From Candidatus Parabeggiatoa sp. nov. 3 (GTDB lineage: Bacteria; Pseudomonadota; Gammaproteobacteria; Beggiatoales; Beggiatoaceae), in NCBI GenBank assembly GCA_003645185.1, contig QNEL01000020.1, positions 1 to 33,840 on the forward strand: DNA of 33,840 nucleotides. The letters run 5' to 3'. Under the pieces are notes generated by a model. The model saw nothing but the letters and a program-made list of their open reading frames with translations, was not told the origin of the DNA and ran no database searches. A program made the position numbers and the translations under genes. Positions 189-11,093 of this stretch are shown piece after piece (positions within the stretch are counted from its first letter, which is position 1; the number at the start of each line of letters is the position of its first letter).

Positions 189-1580
189 ATGATCGACACC
201 ATCATTACGATAGTTGACGCATTAGCCGCCACTTACGATGCCTCCAAATGTATCAGCAATCTCATGTTCGGCGACAAACAAGACAAATACTTACAACAAA
301 TCGCCACCGACATGAAAGACATGAAAGTCCATATTGAGCGACTGTCAGACACCATCTTATACGCCGTCAATTTAGATGGCATAGACACCCTTGACACCCA
401 AAAACCGCAATACTTCAATGACTTACGCGAAATACGCCAACTTTTAGAACCCCTACAAAAAGTGCAGAAAGAACCCCTGCTCTCCTCGGCCATGATTGAA
501 GCGCCACGCCCAATGCGCTCAAAAAATCCGCGTCACGTCTTGCAAGACATCTCACCCTTAGAATACATCACCATTCCAGTCGTTGATCATCCCTGGGAAC
601 CGATGTTATTTCAAGAGAATGGCATCTATTATGTCGGTTGGCAAACGCCAGCCTACTTATCCAAATTAGGTTGCCAATATCCCTCACACTGGGCACTCAA
701 TGACAATGTCTTGCCACAAAACCAATTAGCCGAAAGTCACCCCTTGGTATTAAATCCCAACAAACCCAAGCCTGTTGAACAACCCAAACCCGCCAAGAAG
801 CCACGGAAATCAAAAGCGGGTACAAAACCCTCCGCAAAACCCGGTACGGTATTTCGTGATCCCTTAAAAGACGGAGGCGAAGGCCCTGAAATGATCATTA
901 TTCCGGCTGGCACATTTCGGATGGGCGATATTCAAGGCACAGGTGCTGCTGATGAAAAACCAGTACATCAAGTCTCACTAAAAAGCTTTGCAATGGCGCG
1001 TTATCCGATTACCTTTGCTGAATATGATCTATTTTGTGAAGCAGCAGTTAATCGAAAGAAACCCAGTGATAAGGGCTGGGGGCGTGATAATCGCCCAGTG
1101 ATCAATGTATCTTGGGAGGCTGCCGTCGCTTATTTCAAATGGCTAACAAAACAAACCGGCAAACCTTATCGTTTACCCAGTGAAGCCGAGTGGGAATATG
1201 CCGCTCGTGCTGGCACGGATACCAATTATTGGTGGGGAAATGAAATCGGTCAAAATCGTGCCAATTGTGATAACAGCGGCAGTCAATGGAGTGGCAAACA
1301 AACTTCCCCAGTCGGTTCTTTTGATCCAAATCCCTTTGGTTTATATGACACTGTAGGCAACGTTTGGGAATGGTGTGCCGATCCTTGGCATAAGAATTAT
1401 GAAAAAGCACCGACTGATGGCAGTAATTGGGAAAAACAGGGTAAAAATGAACGTCTGCTTCGTGGCGGCTCGTTCTACAACAACCCGAACCTCTGTCGTG
1501 CTGCCAACCGTCTCAGGTACTCGTCGGACGACCACAACTGGGACCTCGGTTTCCGTGGTTGCGCGGACTTAGCACTGTAA
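189..1580 (+). CDS. Formylglycine-enzyme/C-type-lectin-fold protein, probable retroelement-diversified protein
   Basis: 463 residues. The first ~100 residues are helical and unrecognised, followed by a Pro/Lys-rich linker (about 190-215). From about 222 there is an FGE-sulfatase (SUMF1-like) domain: EMIIIPAGTFRMGD, RPVINVSWEAAVAYFKWL, YRLPSEAEWEYAARAG, GLYDTVGNVWEWCAD, then LLRGGSF near the end. True formylglycine-generating enzymes have two catalytic cysteines after RGGS; only one Cys is present here, so a binding role is likelier than sulfatase maturation. The last ~40 codons differ sharply from the rest: about 60% G+C against about 43% just upstream, and nearly every Asn, Asp, Tyr, Phe and Leu codon there ends in C. 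That is the pattern of a retroelement variable repeat copied from an AAC-rich template. The fold is one used by known variable proteins. The target is unknown. Confidence 0.85.
   Translation: MIDTIITIVDALAATYDASKCISNLMFGDKQDKYLQQIATDMKDMKVHIERLSDTILYAVNLDGIDTLDTQKPQYFNDLREIRQLLEPLQKVQKEPLLSSAMIEAPRPMRSKNPRHVLQDISPLEYITIPVVDHPWEPMLFQENGIYYVGWQTPAYLSKLGCQYPSHWALNDNVLPQNQLAESHPLVLNPNKPKPVEQPKPAKKPRKSKAGTKPSAKPGTVFRDPLKDGGEGPEMIIIPAGTFRMGDIQGTGAADEKPVHQVSLKSFAMARYPITFAEYDLFCEAAVNRKKPSDKGWGRDNRPVINVSWEAAVAYFKWLTKQTGKPYRLPSEAEWEYAARAGTDTNYWWGNEIGQNRANCDNSGSQWSGKQTSPVGSFDPNPFGLYDTVGNVWEWCADPWHKNYEKAPTDGSNWEKQGKNERLLRGGSFYNNPNLCRAANRLRYSSDDHNWDLGFRGCADLAL
1461..1568 (+). other. Candidate diversity-generating retroelement variable repeat (VR)
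   Basis: This is the 3' end of the FGE-fold gene, from RGGS to near the stop. It is GC-rich with codons TTC TAC AAC AAC, AAC CTC, CTC AGG TAC, GAC GAC CAC AAC, GAC CTC. This is what adenine-specific mutagenesis of AAC-type template codons would leave: the first two bases vary and the final C is kept. I found no matching template repeat and no reverse-transcriptase gene in the window, so the element would act in trans or be a stranded VR. The edges are approximate. Confidence 0.7.
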
Positions 1581-1692
1581 CCTCTTGATTTTTAGCACTT
1601 TACACTGGGATTTTTTACTCTTTTACTCTTTTGAAAGGGTATTGTTTGCCAAAGTGCTATTTTTTAATCTTAAGTTTGAAGTGAGGGGGTTT

Positions 1693-2172: not shown

Positions 2173-3468
2173 ATGAGAATTAAGTCTCTTGAGGTGCAAA
2201 ATTTTAAAGGTTTTGAATACAAAAAATTGCATTTTTCACCTCAATTTAATGTATTAATTGGTAATAATGGGAGTGGTAAAACAGCGATATTAGATGCTTT
2301 AGCGGTGAGCATGGGTGGGCTGTTGCTCGGCTTTGATGGGATTGCTTCTCGTTCCATCAAAGAGGAAGAAGTTCGTCAGGTTTACCGCCAATCGGGTCAA
2401 ATTACTGAACTTATTCCACAACATCCGGCTATTGTGCAGTGTGTTGGACAGATTAATGATTCAAACACCCTAAGCTGGGAACGTCGTTTAAATAAAAAAC
2501 AGGGCAAAACCACACGCCAATATGCTAAAACAATCAGACAATATGGTGAACAATTACAGAAAAAAGTAAGAGATGGCGAGCCTGTTGTATTGCCTTTATT
2601 GAGTTACTATAGTACAGCGAGACTTTGGCTTCAGAAAAAAGATAAAGTCGAATTGGTTAAACCCGGATCGCCTACTTCAGGATATGTGGACTGTTTGGAA
2701 ACGGCTTCCAATGAAAAAATGCTGATGGGTTGGATAAAAACCATGGAAATTGAGGCCTCACAGCGGCAAGCATTGCTTTTTGTGTTAGAAGGCTTACGGG
2801 ATGCTGTCAAAAATTGTTTAGAAGGCTGTGAATCGCTTTATTTTAGTGTGCAATTGGATGGGCTTATCGCACGGTTTGGGAATGGGCAAACCCTGCCTGC
2901 TTATCTGTTAAGCGATGGACAGCGGACTATATTGACAATGGTAGCCGATATTGCCTATCGAGCGGCCGTTTTAAATTCACATTTAGGCGAAAAAGCGGCC
3001 CTCGAAACGCCAGGCATCGTACTCATTGATGAAATTGATTTACATCTACATCCCGAATGGCAACGAACAATAGTCGAGCAATTAAAAACGAGCTTTCCTA
3101 AAATTCAGTTCATTGCCACAAGCCATTCTCCCATTATCATTCAATCTTTAAAACCGGGTGAAGTGATTAACTTGAACGATGAACAGATTGGCGACTATTA
3201 CAATAAAGGAGTTGAAGACATTTTAGAATGGGTTATGGGAGTGGCTAACTCACCGCAAAGCGAAGGCCGCTTAAAAATGATGGAAGTGGCAAGAGAATAT
3301 TATCGGCTATTAGAACACGCTAAGGAGAGGGCACCAGAGGAACTTGAGCGAGTCAAAGCGCGTTTAGATGAATTATCGGCACCTTATAGTGATAACATTG
3401 CCTATCATGCTTTCCTAGAAATGAAACGTGAGGTAGCTGGATTAGGAGATGACAATGCGTCCCGTTGA
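2173..3468 (+). CDS. ptuA: PtuA-like ATPase of a Septu-type defence pair
   Basis: 431 residues, an SMC/ABC-like ATPase of the AAA_15/AAA_21 type. It opens with the strand MRIKSLEVQNFKGF typical of this group. Walker A is GNNGSGKT (30-37), the signature-like segment LSDGQRT (246-252), Walker B VLIDEID (283-289) followed by a D-loop-like HLHP, and the switch His is in ATSHSP (His318). GGAG lies 8 nt before the ATG. The gene overlaps the following HNH nuclease gene by about 14 bp, so the two are translated together. ATPase + small HNH is the gene pair of Septu anti-phage systems and of retron effectors. Known for the family: PtuA and PtuB form a complex that cuts invading DNA. No reverse transcriptase is beside it, so a stand-alone Septu-like system is the better reading. 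The assignment rests on motifs and operon structure, not on a search. Confidence 0.8.
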   Translation: MRIKSLEVQNFKGFEYKKLHFSPQFNVLIGNNGSGKTAILDALAVSMGGLLLGFDGIASRSIKEEEVRQVYRQSGQITELIPQHPAIVQCVGQINDSNTLSWERRLNKKQGKTTRQYAKTIRQYGEQLQKKVRDGEPVVLPLLSYYSTARLWLQKKDKVELVKPGSPTSGYVDCLETASNEKMLMGWIKTMEIEASQRQALLFVLEGLRDAVKNCLEGCESLYFSVQLDGLIARFGNGQTLPAYLLSDGQRTILTMVADIAYRAAVLNSHLGEKAALETPGIVLIDEIDLHLHPEWQRTIVEQLKTSFPKIQFIATSHSPIIIQSLKPGEVINLNDEQIGDYYNKGVEDILEWVMGVANSPQSEGRLKMMEVAREYYRLLEHAKERAPEELERVKARLDELSAPYSDNIAYHAFLEMKREVAGLGDDNASR

Positions 3469-4132
3469 ACGTGGTGAACAACCCACTGATGACACTGGAA
3501 AACCAATCCGTTTTATGAAATATCAAGAAGCGAGTCCTTATTTAAAGGAACGATTGGGGAGATATTGTTCATATTGCGAAATGCACTTACCAGCAGGGCT
3601 GCATGTAGAACACATACAACCCAAATATCATCATCCTCAACAGAAATTAGACTGGAATAACTTTTTGTTAGCTTGTGTTCATTGTAATAGTGCAAAAGGG
3701 AATACAAATATTATCGCAACAGAATATTACTGGCCAGATCAAGATAATACTTTTCTGGCTTTTGAATATGGGGAAGAGGGCTCAATCAGGCCTAATCCAA
3801 AACTGACACCAGAACAACAGCGTTTAGCTTTAAAAAGCCTCGCACTTTTTAATTTAAGCCAGAAGACTTGTCCTGAAAATGATCCTCGTTTACTTCAACG
3901 TCGTGAAGCTTGGGAAATTGCTAAAGAAGCCTATACTGATTTACAAAATGGCGCAACCATTAGAACCGTGAAAAGATTAGCTCAAGCCAAAGGATTTTGG
4001 TCAGTTTGGATAACCGTTTTTCAGGACAATCCTGAAATGTTAAATCTGTTTATCCAAGCTTTCCCAGGGACTTGTCAACAGTGTTTTGACGAATCCGGTC
4101 AAGCTGTGAAGCGTTTCGGCGGGGCAATATAA
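3455..4132 (+). CDS. ptuB: PtuB-like HNH endonuclease (TIGR02646-like)
   Basis: 225 residues from the chosen start. AGGAG (3444-3448) touches an ATG at 3449 but is correctly spaced (6 nt) from the ATG at 3455. That start gives MRPVERG, the usual opening of this family as I remember it. The HNH/zinc core is CSYC (Cys38, Cys41), HVEHI (His50, Glu52, His53), WNNFLLAC and CVHCNSAKG (Cys74, Cys77, Asn78). These residues supply the zinc ligands and the catalytic His/Asn of a beta-beta-alpha-metal nuclease. The C-terminal ~120 residues are helical and without motifs. Partner of the ATPase encoded just upstream; expected to degrade DNA when the complex is triggered. Confidence 0.8.
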   Translation: MRPVERGEQPTDDTGKPIRFMKYQEASPYLKERLGRYCSYCEMHLPAGLHVEHIQPKYHHPQQKLDWNNFLLACVHCNSAKGNTNIIATEYYWPDQDNTFLAFEYGEEGSIRPNPKLTPEQQRLALKSLALFNLSQKTCPENDPRLLQRREAWEIAKEAYTDLQNGATIRTVKRLAQAKGFWSVWITVFQDNPEMLNLFIQAFPGTCQQCFDESGQAVKRFGGAI

Positions 4133-10223: not shown

Positions 10224-11093
10224 TTGATCAGAGCCATTATTTTCACGATTTTTGGCGGTGTTACGGTTGGTGTTATGTTACTCTGGATAGAATACAGCTT
10301 TTTTATTCCTTACTATAACGTTCCTGAAGCGACTTCAACAACACCAATGAGTTTTCATCAGACACCCGGTAAAATCTTTCATGATTACTTACAAGATGGT
10401 AACTTAGGTCCTGAAATGGTACTGATTCCGGCCGGTCAATTTCAGATGAGAAACACACAAGATAAAAATTCGCTTGAGGAAACTGCTATACAGAATGTCT
10501 TTGTAAACCGCTTTGCAATCGGGCGTTATGAGGTGACTTTTGAGGATTATGACCGTTTTGTAAAGGCCACTGGCCAATCTAAGCCAGATGATGAAGGTTG
10601 GGGGCGAGGTAATCGACCCGTCATGAATGTCTCTTGGCTAGATGCCATTGCTTATACAAAATGGTTGACTCAACAAACCGGAAAACAATATCGTTTGCCT
10701 ACCGAAGCGGAATGGGAATATGCCGCACGATCTAATACGGATACACAATATTGGTGGGGAAACGAAATGAGGACGAAACAAGCGAACTGTGATGGTTGTG
10801 GTAGTCGCTGGGACAATAAAAAAACTGCGCCAGTCGGTTCATTTACGCCGAATTCCTTTAATTTATATGACACTGTCGGAAACGTTTATGAATGGACGTG
10901 TTCAGAATATGAAGATAAATATACTGGAAAAGAGCAATGCTGTTTTACCAGCATGAACCAGAATATTTTTCATGTTATTCGGGGTGGTTCTTGGTATAGC
11001 TTACCCAACTACGTGCGAACAGCTTCTCGTTTTAGGCGCAGAATAGACAAGCACGATTTTACGATTGGATTTAGGGTGGCTAGGAATCTGTAA
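10224..11093 (+). CDS. Membrane-anchored FGE-sulfatase (SUMF1-like) domain protein
   Basis: 289 residues from a TTG start; GGAGG at 10213-10217 lies 6 nt upstream and fixes the start. Residues ~3-30 are a hydrophobic signal anchor, so the domain is probably periplasmic. From ~62 an FGE-like domain follows: EMVLIPAGQFQMRN, RPVMNVSWLDAIAYTKWL, YRLPTEAEWEYAARS, YWWGNE, LYDTVGNVYEWTCSE, VIRGGSWYS. The catalytic Cys pair of true formylglycine-generating enzymes is missing after RGGS, so sulfatase activation is unlikely. It is clearly related to the first gene of the window. Its C-terminal codons have the ordinary AT-rich composition, so it does not look like a retroelement target. No sulfatase is nearby. 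Confidence 0.8.
   Translation: MIRAIIFTIFGGVTVGVMLLWIEYSFFIPYYNVPEATSTTPMSFHQTPGKIFHDYLQDGNLGPEMVLIPAGQFQMRNTQDKNSLEETAIQNVFVNRFAIGRYEVTFEDYDRFVKATGQSKPDDEGWGRGNRPVMNVSWLDAIAYTKWLTQQTGKQYRLPTEAEWEYAARSNTDTQYWWGNEMRTKQANCDGCGSRWDNKKTAPVGSFTPNSFNLYDTVGNVYEWTCSEYEDKYTGKEQCCFTSMNQNIFHVIRGGSWYSLPNYVRTASRFRRRIDKHDFTIGFRVARNL

Follow-up and report, generated by a model that had tools for sequence, protein, structure and literature searches.

The question raised by this locus is whether the 3' end of a gene for an FGE-fold protein is a variable repeat (VR), rewritten by a diversity-generating retroelement (DGR) whose reverse transcriptase (RT) is encoded elsewhere. The gene lies near the start of the window, by which is meant the whole 33,840-nucleotide stretch of Candidatus Parabeggiatoa sp. 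nov. 3 DNA that was analysed; in the 8.37 Mb assembly (G000; 853 contigs, completeness 90.02, contamination 5.34) this stretch is contig C20. The gene, the parts of its repeat and its nearest neighbours are as follows.

189..1580, + strand: target gene, 463 aa, with an N-terminal module that has no Pfam match, then a C-terminal FGE/C-type-lectin-fold domain
1452..1574, + strand: VR common to eight places in the genome (DNA search and alignment), homogenised relative to the upstream sequence
1476..1545, + strand: stretch with template-adenine (NNC / AGG-type) variable columns, columns 16-85 of a 99-column comparison
1548..1571, + strand: 3' end of the VR, rich in G+C and with little variation (nearly the same sequence in most of the eight); candidate initiation-of-homing (IMH-like) segment
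2173..3468, + strand: Septu ATPase PtuA, a neighbour given as context (PADLOC PtuA E 3e-145)
3449..4132, + strand: Septu HNH nuclease PtuB, a neighbour given as context (PADLOC PtuB E 9.2e-79)

The gene end and its copies in the genome

The FGE fold proposed in the first-pass annotation was borne out by a profile search, in which residues 232-456 of the 463-residue protein matched the FGE-sulfatase family (PF03781, E 8.4e-61). This domain is related to a solved variable protein of Treponema denticola, TvpA (2y3c, E 7.6e-16), and solved FGE enzymes also match the protein. The VR sits C-terminally in the FGE-fold protein, directly before the stop codon (1578-1580). The N-terminal module (189-830) is 57-61% identical in same-genus homologues and was found again in 13 of the 40 genomes searched; in the genome G020 (L206) the same module is joined to an FGE domain whose tail resembles the second VR family described below. 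The structure predicted for the protein from an eight-sequence alignment was poor (mean pLDDT 50), and no reading is based on it.

Positions 1461-1580 have a G+C content of 59.2%; the remainder of the gene has 45.9% and the window as a whole 40.2%, and of the 120-nt stretches with a start between 189 and 1341 none is as G+C-rich. The jump to about 60% reported earlier was therefore found as described, although the accompanying figure of about 43% for the remaining sequence of the gene was slightly low. The reported preference for codons ending in C was also recovered: among the pyrimidine-ending codons for Asn, Asp, Tyr, Phe, His and Cys and the CTY codons for Leu, 18 of 19 end in C in this segment, compared with 34 of 97 elsewhere in the gene (Fisher p 9.7e-7). 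The homogenised repeat begins slightly before 1461, at about 1452, and by analogy its segment 1548-1571 may serve in the initiation of homing. An inverted repeat after the stop codon (TAGCACTTT/AAAGTGCTA) was seen by eye and was not counted as a component of the system, since it is common to just four of the eight VR places. Between the target gene and the Septu genes lies a cluster of palindromic repeats (1880-2143), including two 82-nt copies that are 99% alike, which is possibly a miniature mobile element. The PtuA/PtuB pair (2173-4132) is directly downstream of the target gene and is given as context.

A DNA search with window 1441-1600 returned eight places in the genome, one of them the window itself; the other seven, on contigs C52, C377, C67, C543, C528, C246 and C316, are 78-84% identical to it, and together the eight form VR family 1. 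At seven of the eight places an FGE gene ends with the repeat, read in frame; the FGE frame of C543 ends just short of it. A viral origin of the repeat was considered and rejected, the exact degenerate pattern having no match in viral_contigs. FGE sequences occur at 21 places in the genome, and a second VR family was found at six further FGE genes (C2, C30, C193, C321, C354 and C726); judged by sequence, 14 of the 21 places look like DGR targets. Three of the other seven were looked at and not assigned (C43, C219 and a second FGE gene in the window, at 10224-11093), and four (C232, C33, C504 and C190) failed the text filters and were left outside the inspection.

A domain search of the 14 targets identified N-terminal partners of several kinds: fn3 (C52, C67 and C2), protein kinase (C528, C543, C30 and C193), caspase C14 (C321 and C726) and TIR (C354). 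In the window gene, C377, C246 and C316 no partner domain was recognised by this search. Partners of these four kinds suit sensors better than an enzyme, and the tail itself, which recurs at eight places and keeps its hypervariable codons to one frame, is hard to reconcile with a true formylglycine-generating or other catalytic FGE enzyme that acquired a high-G+C tail horizontally. An enzyme of that kind would match the Pfam FGE-sulfatase family and solved FGE enzymes, as this protein does, and its foreign tail would show the rise in G+C, but as an explanation of this gene it is very unlikely.

Template adenines and homogenisation of the repeat

Template, RT and VRs are all present in the sister species Ca. 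Parabeggiatoa sp. HSG14 (G003), in which one contig (C425) carries a target gene, a template (TR1) and, on the opposite strand, a 351-codon RT. This RT is of the DGR type (RVT_1 E 4.7e-21), has the motif GLPIGNLTSQ, which we take to be typical of DGRs, and is the only one of its type found in HSG14. All 16 differences between TR1 and its cis VR fall at template adenines, as do 12 of the 13 differences from a second VR on C425 and 16 of the 18 from a remote VR on another HSG14 contig (C178). With an RT, a template and a cis VR differing from it solely at template A, the locus has the composition of a complete DGR. A second template (TR2), with its own VR, is on HSG14 contig C114 (L202 2859-2960). 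Its 13 differences from that VR are likewise all at template A, and the VR protein has three TIR and two FGE stretches. No RT was present in the 7.7 kb read around TR2; an amidase-like frame lies downstream of it. The HSG14 homologue of the window gene is on C421, away from the RT contig. Neither template is an exact fit to its VR: comparison with TR2 shows differences at 17 A and 6 non-A columns, and comparison with TR1 at 14 A and 11 non-A columns.

The templates are followed by a conserved RNA of 125 positions, in which 13 of the 25 predicted pairs are changed on both sides (covarying); an Rfam search of the HSG14 template locus gave a chance-level match only. A bAvd match (PF22296) was found beside the RT of a relative (L034), and an Avd candidate frame near the HSG14 RT was seen by eye. 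The HSG14-type RT is present in 13 of 42 genomes of the family, and, beyond Beggiatoaceae, most of the closest named relatives of the HSG14 RT are from cyanobacteria (best-segment identity 60-73%).

The templates of relatives, chiefly that of HSG14, rather than one from the genome itself, were used as the key to the adenine columns. The p values obtained are a guide only, because the columns are not fully independent: in the four closest VRs (C20, C52, C377 and C67) 24 of the 30 HSG14-template A columns vary against 4 of the 69 non-A columns (p 1.4e-13), in all eight VRs 27/30 against 21/69 (p 2.4e-8), in the seven left when C316 is excluded 26/30 against 12/69 (p 7.1e-11), and in the second VR family 26/30 against 19/69 others (p 4e-8). 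Templates from seven further relatives gave the same result as that of HSG14 (8/8 templates tested agree). Among the non-A differences, columns 86-87 set C20 and C246 apart from the other six VRs, those at columns 30 and 93 are common to C52 and C377, and additional ones occur in C316, C246 and C528, most of them in C316. These differences call for more than one version of the template, or for some drift; the pattern suggests at least two versions plus drift, greatest in C316.

These observations uphold the interpretation of 1461-1580 as a VR, the repeat being shared by eight places with its variation concentrated at template-A columns. The expectation that differences would be confined to template adenines, checked here against the templates of other species, holds for most of them and fails for the exceptions listed. 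The suggestion that one retroelement may serve several targets is supported both by the eight copies with adenine-column variation and by the template, RT and remote VRs of HSG14.

Whether the copies resemble each other by homing or by descent was addressed with codon third positions at seven places (21 pairs), C543 being omitted because its frame is broken. In upstream codons for the same residue, C20 agrees with C52, C377 and C67 at 62-67% of third positions, and with C528, C246 and C316 at 47-50%. At non-A columns of the VR, the third positions of C20 agree at 85-97% with five of these six partners and at 70% with C316; for C20 and C528, 29 of 33 are alike in the VR compared with 44 of 88 upstream. 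The VR third positions were significantly more alike than those upstream in 14 of the 21 pairs (p < 0.05), the remaining seven being C52-C67, C377-C67, C528-C316, C246-C316, C316-C52, C316-C377 and C316-C67. The greater likeness within the VR therefore indicates that, once the genes had diverged, their repeats were rewritten from one common source.

Ordinary evolution of paralogues, in which gene conversion among FGE genes is combined with diversifying selection on a binding loop and no retroelement takes part, has the necessary material: FGE paralogues are many (21 places), and binding by the loop is plausible. It is nevertheless scarcely credible here: the first two bases of the codons vary freely but the third stays C, the adenines in other species' templates predict the variable columns, and protein-level selection leaves the constant synonymous third bases (18/19 C-ending) unexplained. 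On the evidence of the sequences, window 1452-1574 is very probably a remote VR of a DGR. An error-prone DGR RT would copy a template-repeat RNA encoded elsewhere and insert random bases wherever the template has an adenine, so that AAC, for example, becomes NNC. The resulting cDNA would replace the 3' end of the window's FGE-fold gene, and likewise that of seven or more paralogous places, altering the binding face of the FGE-fold protein.

Template, reverse transcriptase and DGR RNA

The first-pass annotation had looked to a template with A at the differing positions next to an RT; a genome-wide search produced none in this assembly. Searching the assembly with the inferred template returned the eight places, none of which reads as a template, and the DNA of the HSG14 template tail gave chance-level matches only in this genome. 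A covariance model of the DGR RNA likewise had no match in the genome; the same model gave five strong matches in HSG14, G020, G022 and G028, four of which were in the training set and one of which, on C114 of HSG14, was not. With the HSG14 RT as query, no match was obtained in the genome at 1e-30.

RVT_1 matches in the genome number ten, none with the DGR motif. Six are long frames that in our reading are group-II-intron-like, two are of another type (C178 and C342 of this assembly) and two are partial or weak. The C178 and C342 RTs were rejected as DGR RTs since they have no SQ-type motif of the kind typical of DGR RTs and read RGLPLG(G/A)SISP and YMDD. They are related RT-domain frames of 505 and 527 codons on the + strand (L015 from 201 on C342 and L016 from 1087 on C178), with a hydrophobic C-terminal tail that ends in basic residues, and are not DGR-like.

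Diversification by an RT encoded elsewhere, as first proposed, thus has the repeat, the adenine-column pattern and the HSG14 machinery in its favour, and the absence of RT and template from the genome's own assembly against it. That the machinery is missing through assembly is probable. The last-numbered contig, by numbering the smallest, has 2,516 bases, and the assembly seems to be without contigs under 2.5 kb; the RT cassettes of two relatives are on contigs of just 3,159 and 3,312 bases. An unassembled cassette is therefore plausible, and its loss from the bin would be easy. The lack of a template in a complete genome, which had been named as evidence against the reading, does not apply here because the assembly is about 90% complete. 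We infer that RT and template are, or recently were, present in this lineage, and are either unassembled or lost.

True loss of the machinery is possible though unlikely. Of the other three genomes of the genus, two have no intact RT: in G001 it is broken, and in G002 a 3' remnant of it is left. In the window's genome, too, the system may therefore be dead. The broken DGR RT of G001 (L061, contig C648) has a short repeated insertion and shares its contig with an FGE gene whose tail is VR-like (L154). If the VR was made by a DGR since lost from the lineage, the eight repeats would be a frozen, unchanging repertoire. The absence of RT, template and DGR RNA from the assembly would then be explained, the state of the RT in G001 and G002 would be in keeping, and so would the many non-A changes in the C316 VR. 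However, the non-A columns of C20, C52, C377, C67 and C543 are almost free of scattered decay, although the first four of these (C543 omitted) differ from one another at about 15-38% of third positions in upstream codons for the same residue, and the completeness of the assembly and the contig sizes given above also count against loss; a frozen repertoire is accordingly improbable. More doubtful still is an arrangement in which at least 14 targets and two template classes are kept and the machinery is lost, or supplied intermittently from outside the main genome, with the repertoire frozen or reactivated in trans.

Targets and known systems

The remote-VR reading gives giant sulfur bacteria a large set of candidate DGR targets of the remote kind, with links to death-type and defence-type domains, and the diversified proteins may be sensors in a conflict or defence network. 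The codon pattern suffices to recognise such targets with no template or RT at hand. RT-proximal surveys miss remote targets, a limitation that Roux et al. (2021) acknowledge for their own survey (PMC8144416). A literature search, made over titles, returned none linking DGRs with Beggiatoa or Parabeggiatoa.

The TvpA DGR of Treponema denticola resembles the system described here in its C-type-lectin/FGE-fold variable protein (2y3c), and belongs to a different phylum; it reportedly has several remote targets, with the RT present in the genome. For FGE/CLec proteins of multicellular bacteria, DGR targets that are remote or diversified in trans have already been described (PMC10907252, PMC7517822). 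The cyanobacterial DGRs, as treated in the sections consulted of Vallota-Eastman et al. (2020; PMC7517822), are alike in having variable proteins far from the RT and kinase- or TIR-type N-terminal domains; unlike the present case, they are from a different phylum and their remote proteins are described from genomes that encode a DGR RT. In Thiohalocapsa sp. PB-PSB1, a multicellular purple sulfur bacterium with a large genome, Dore et al. (2024; PMC10907252) report 15 target genes in four template classes. They also describe incomplete loci and possible remote targets, for some of which activity in trans is the best explanation. The likeness extends to FGE/CLec targets in conflict-system proteins, including TIR, kinase and CHAT, and the diversified conflict-system sensors proposed there would be compatible with the targets found here. 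Thiohalocapsa has one complete locus per class and its diversification was seen in metagenomes, whereas the present system is known from an assembly with neither template nor RT.
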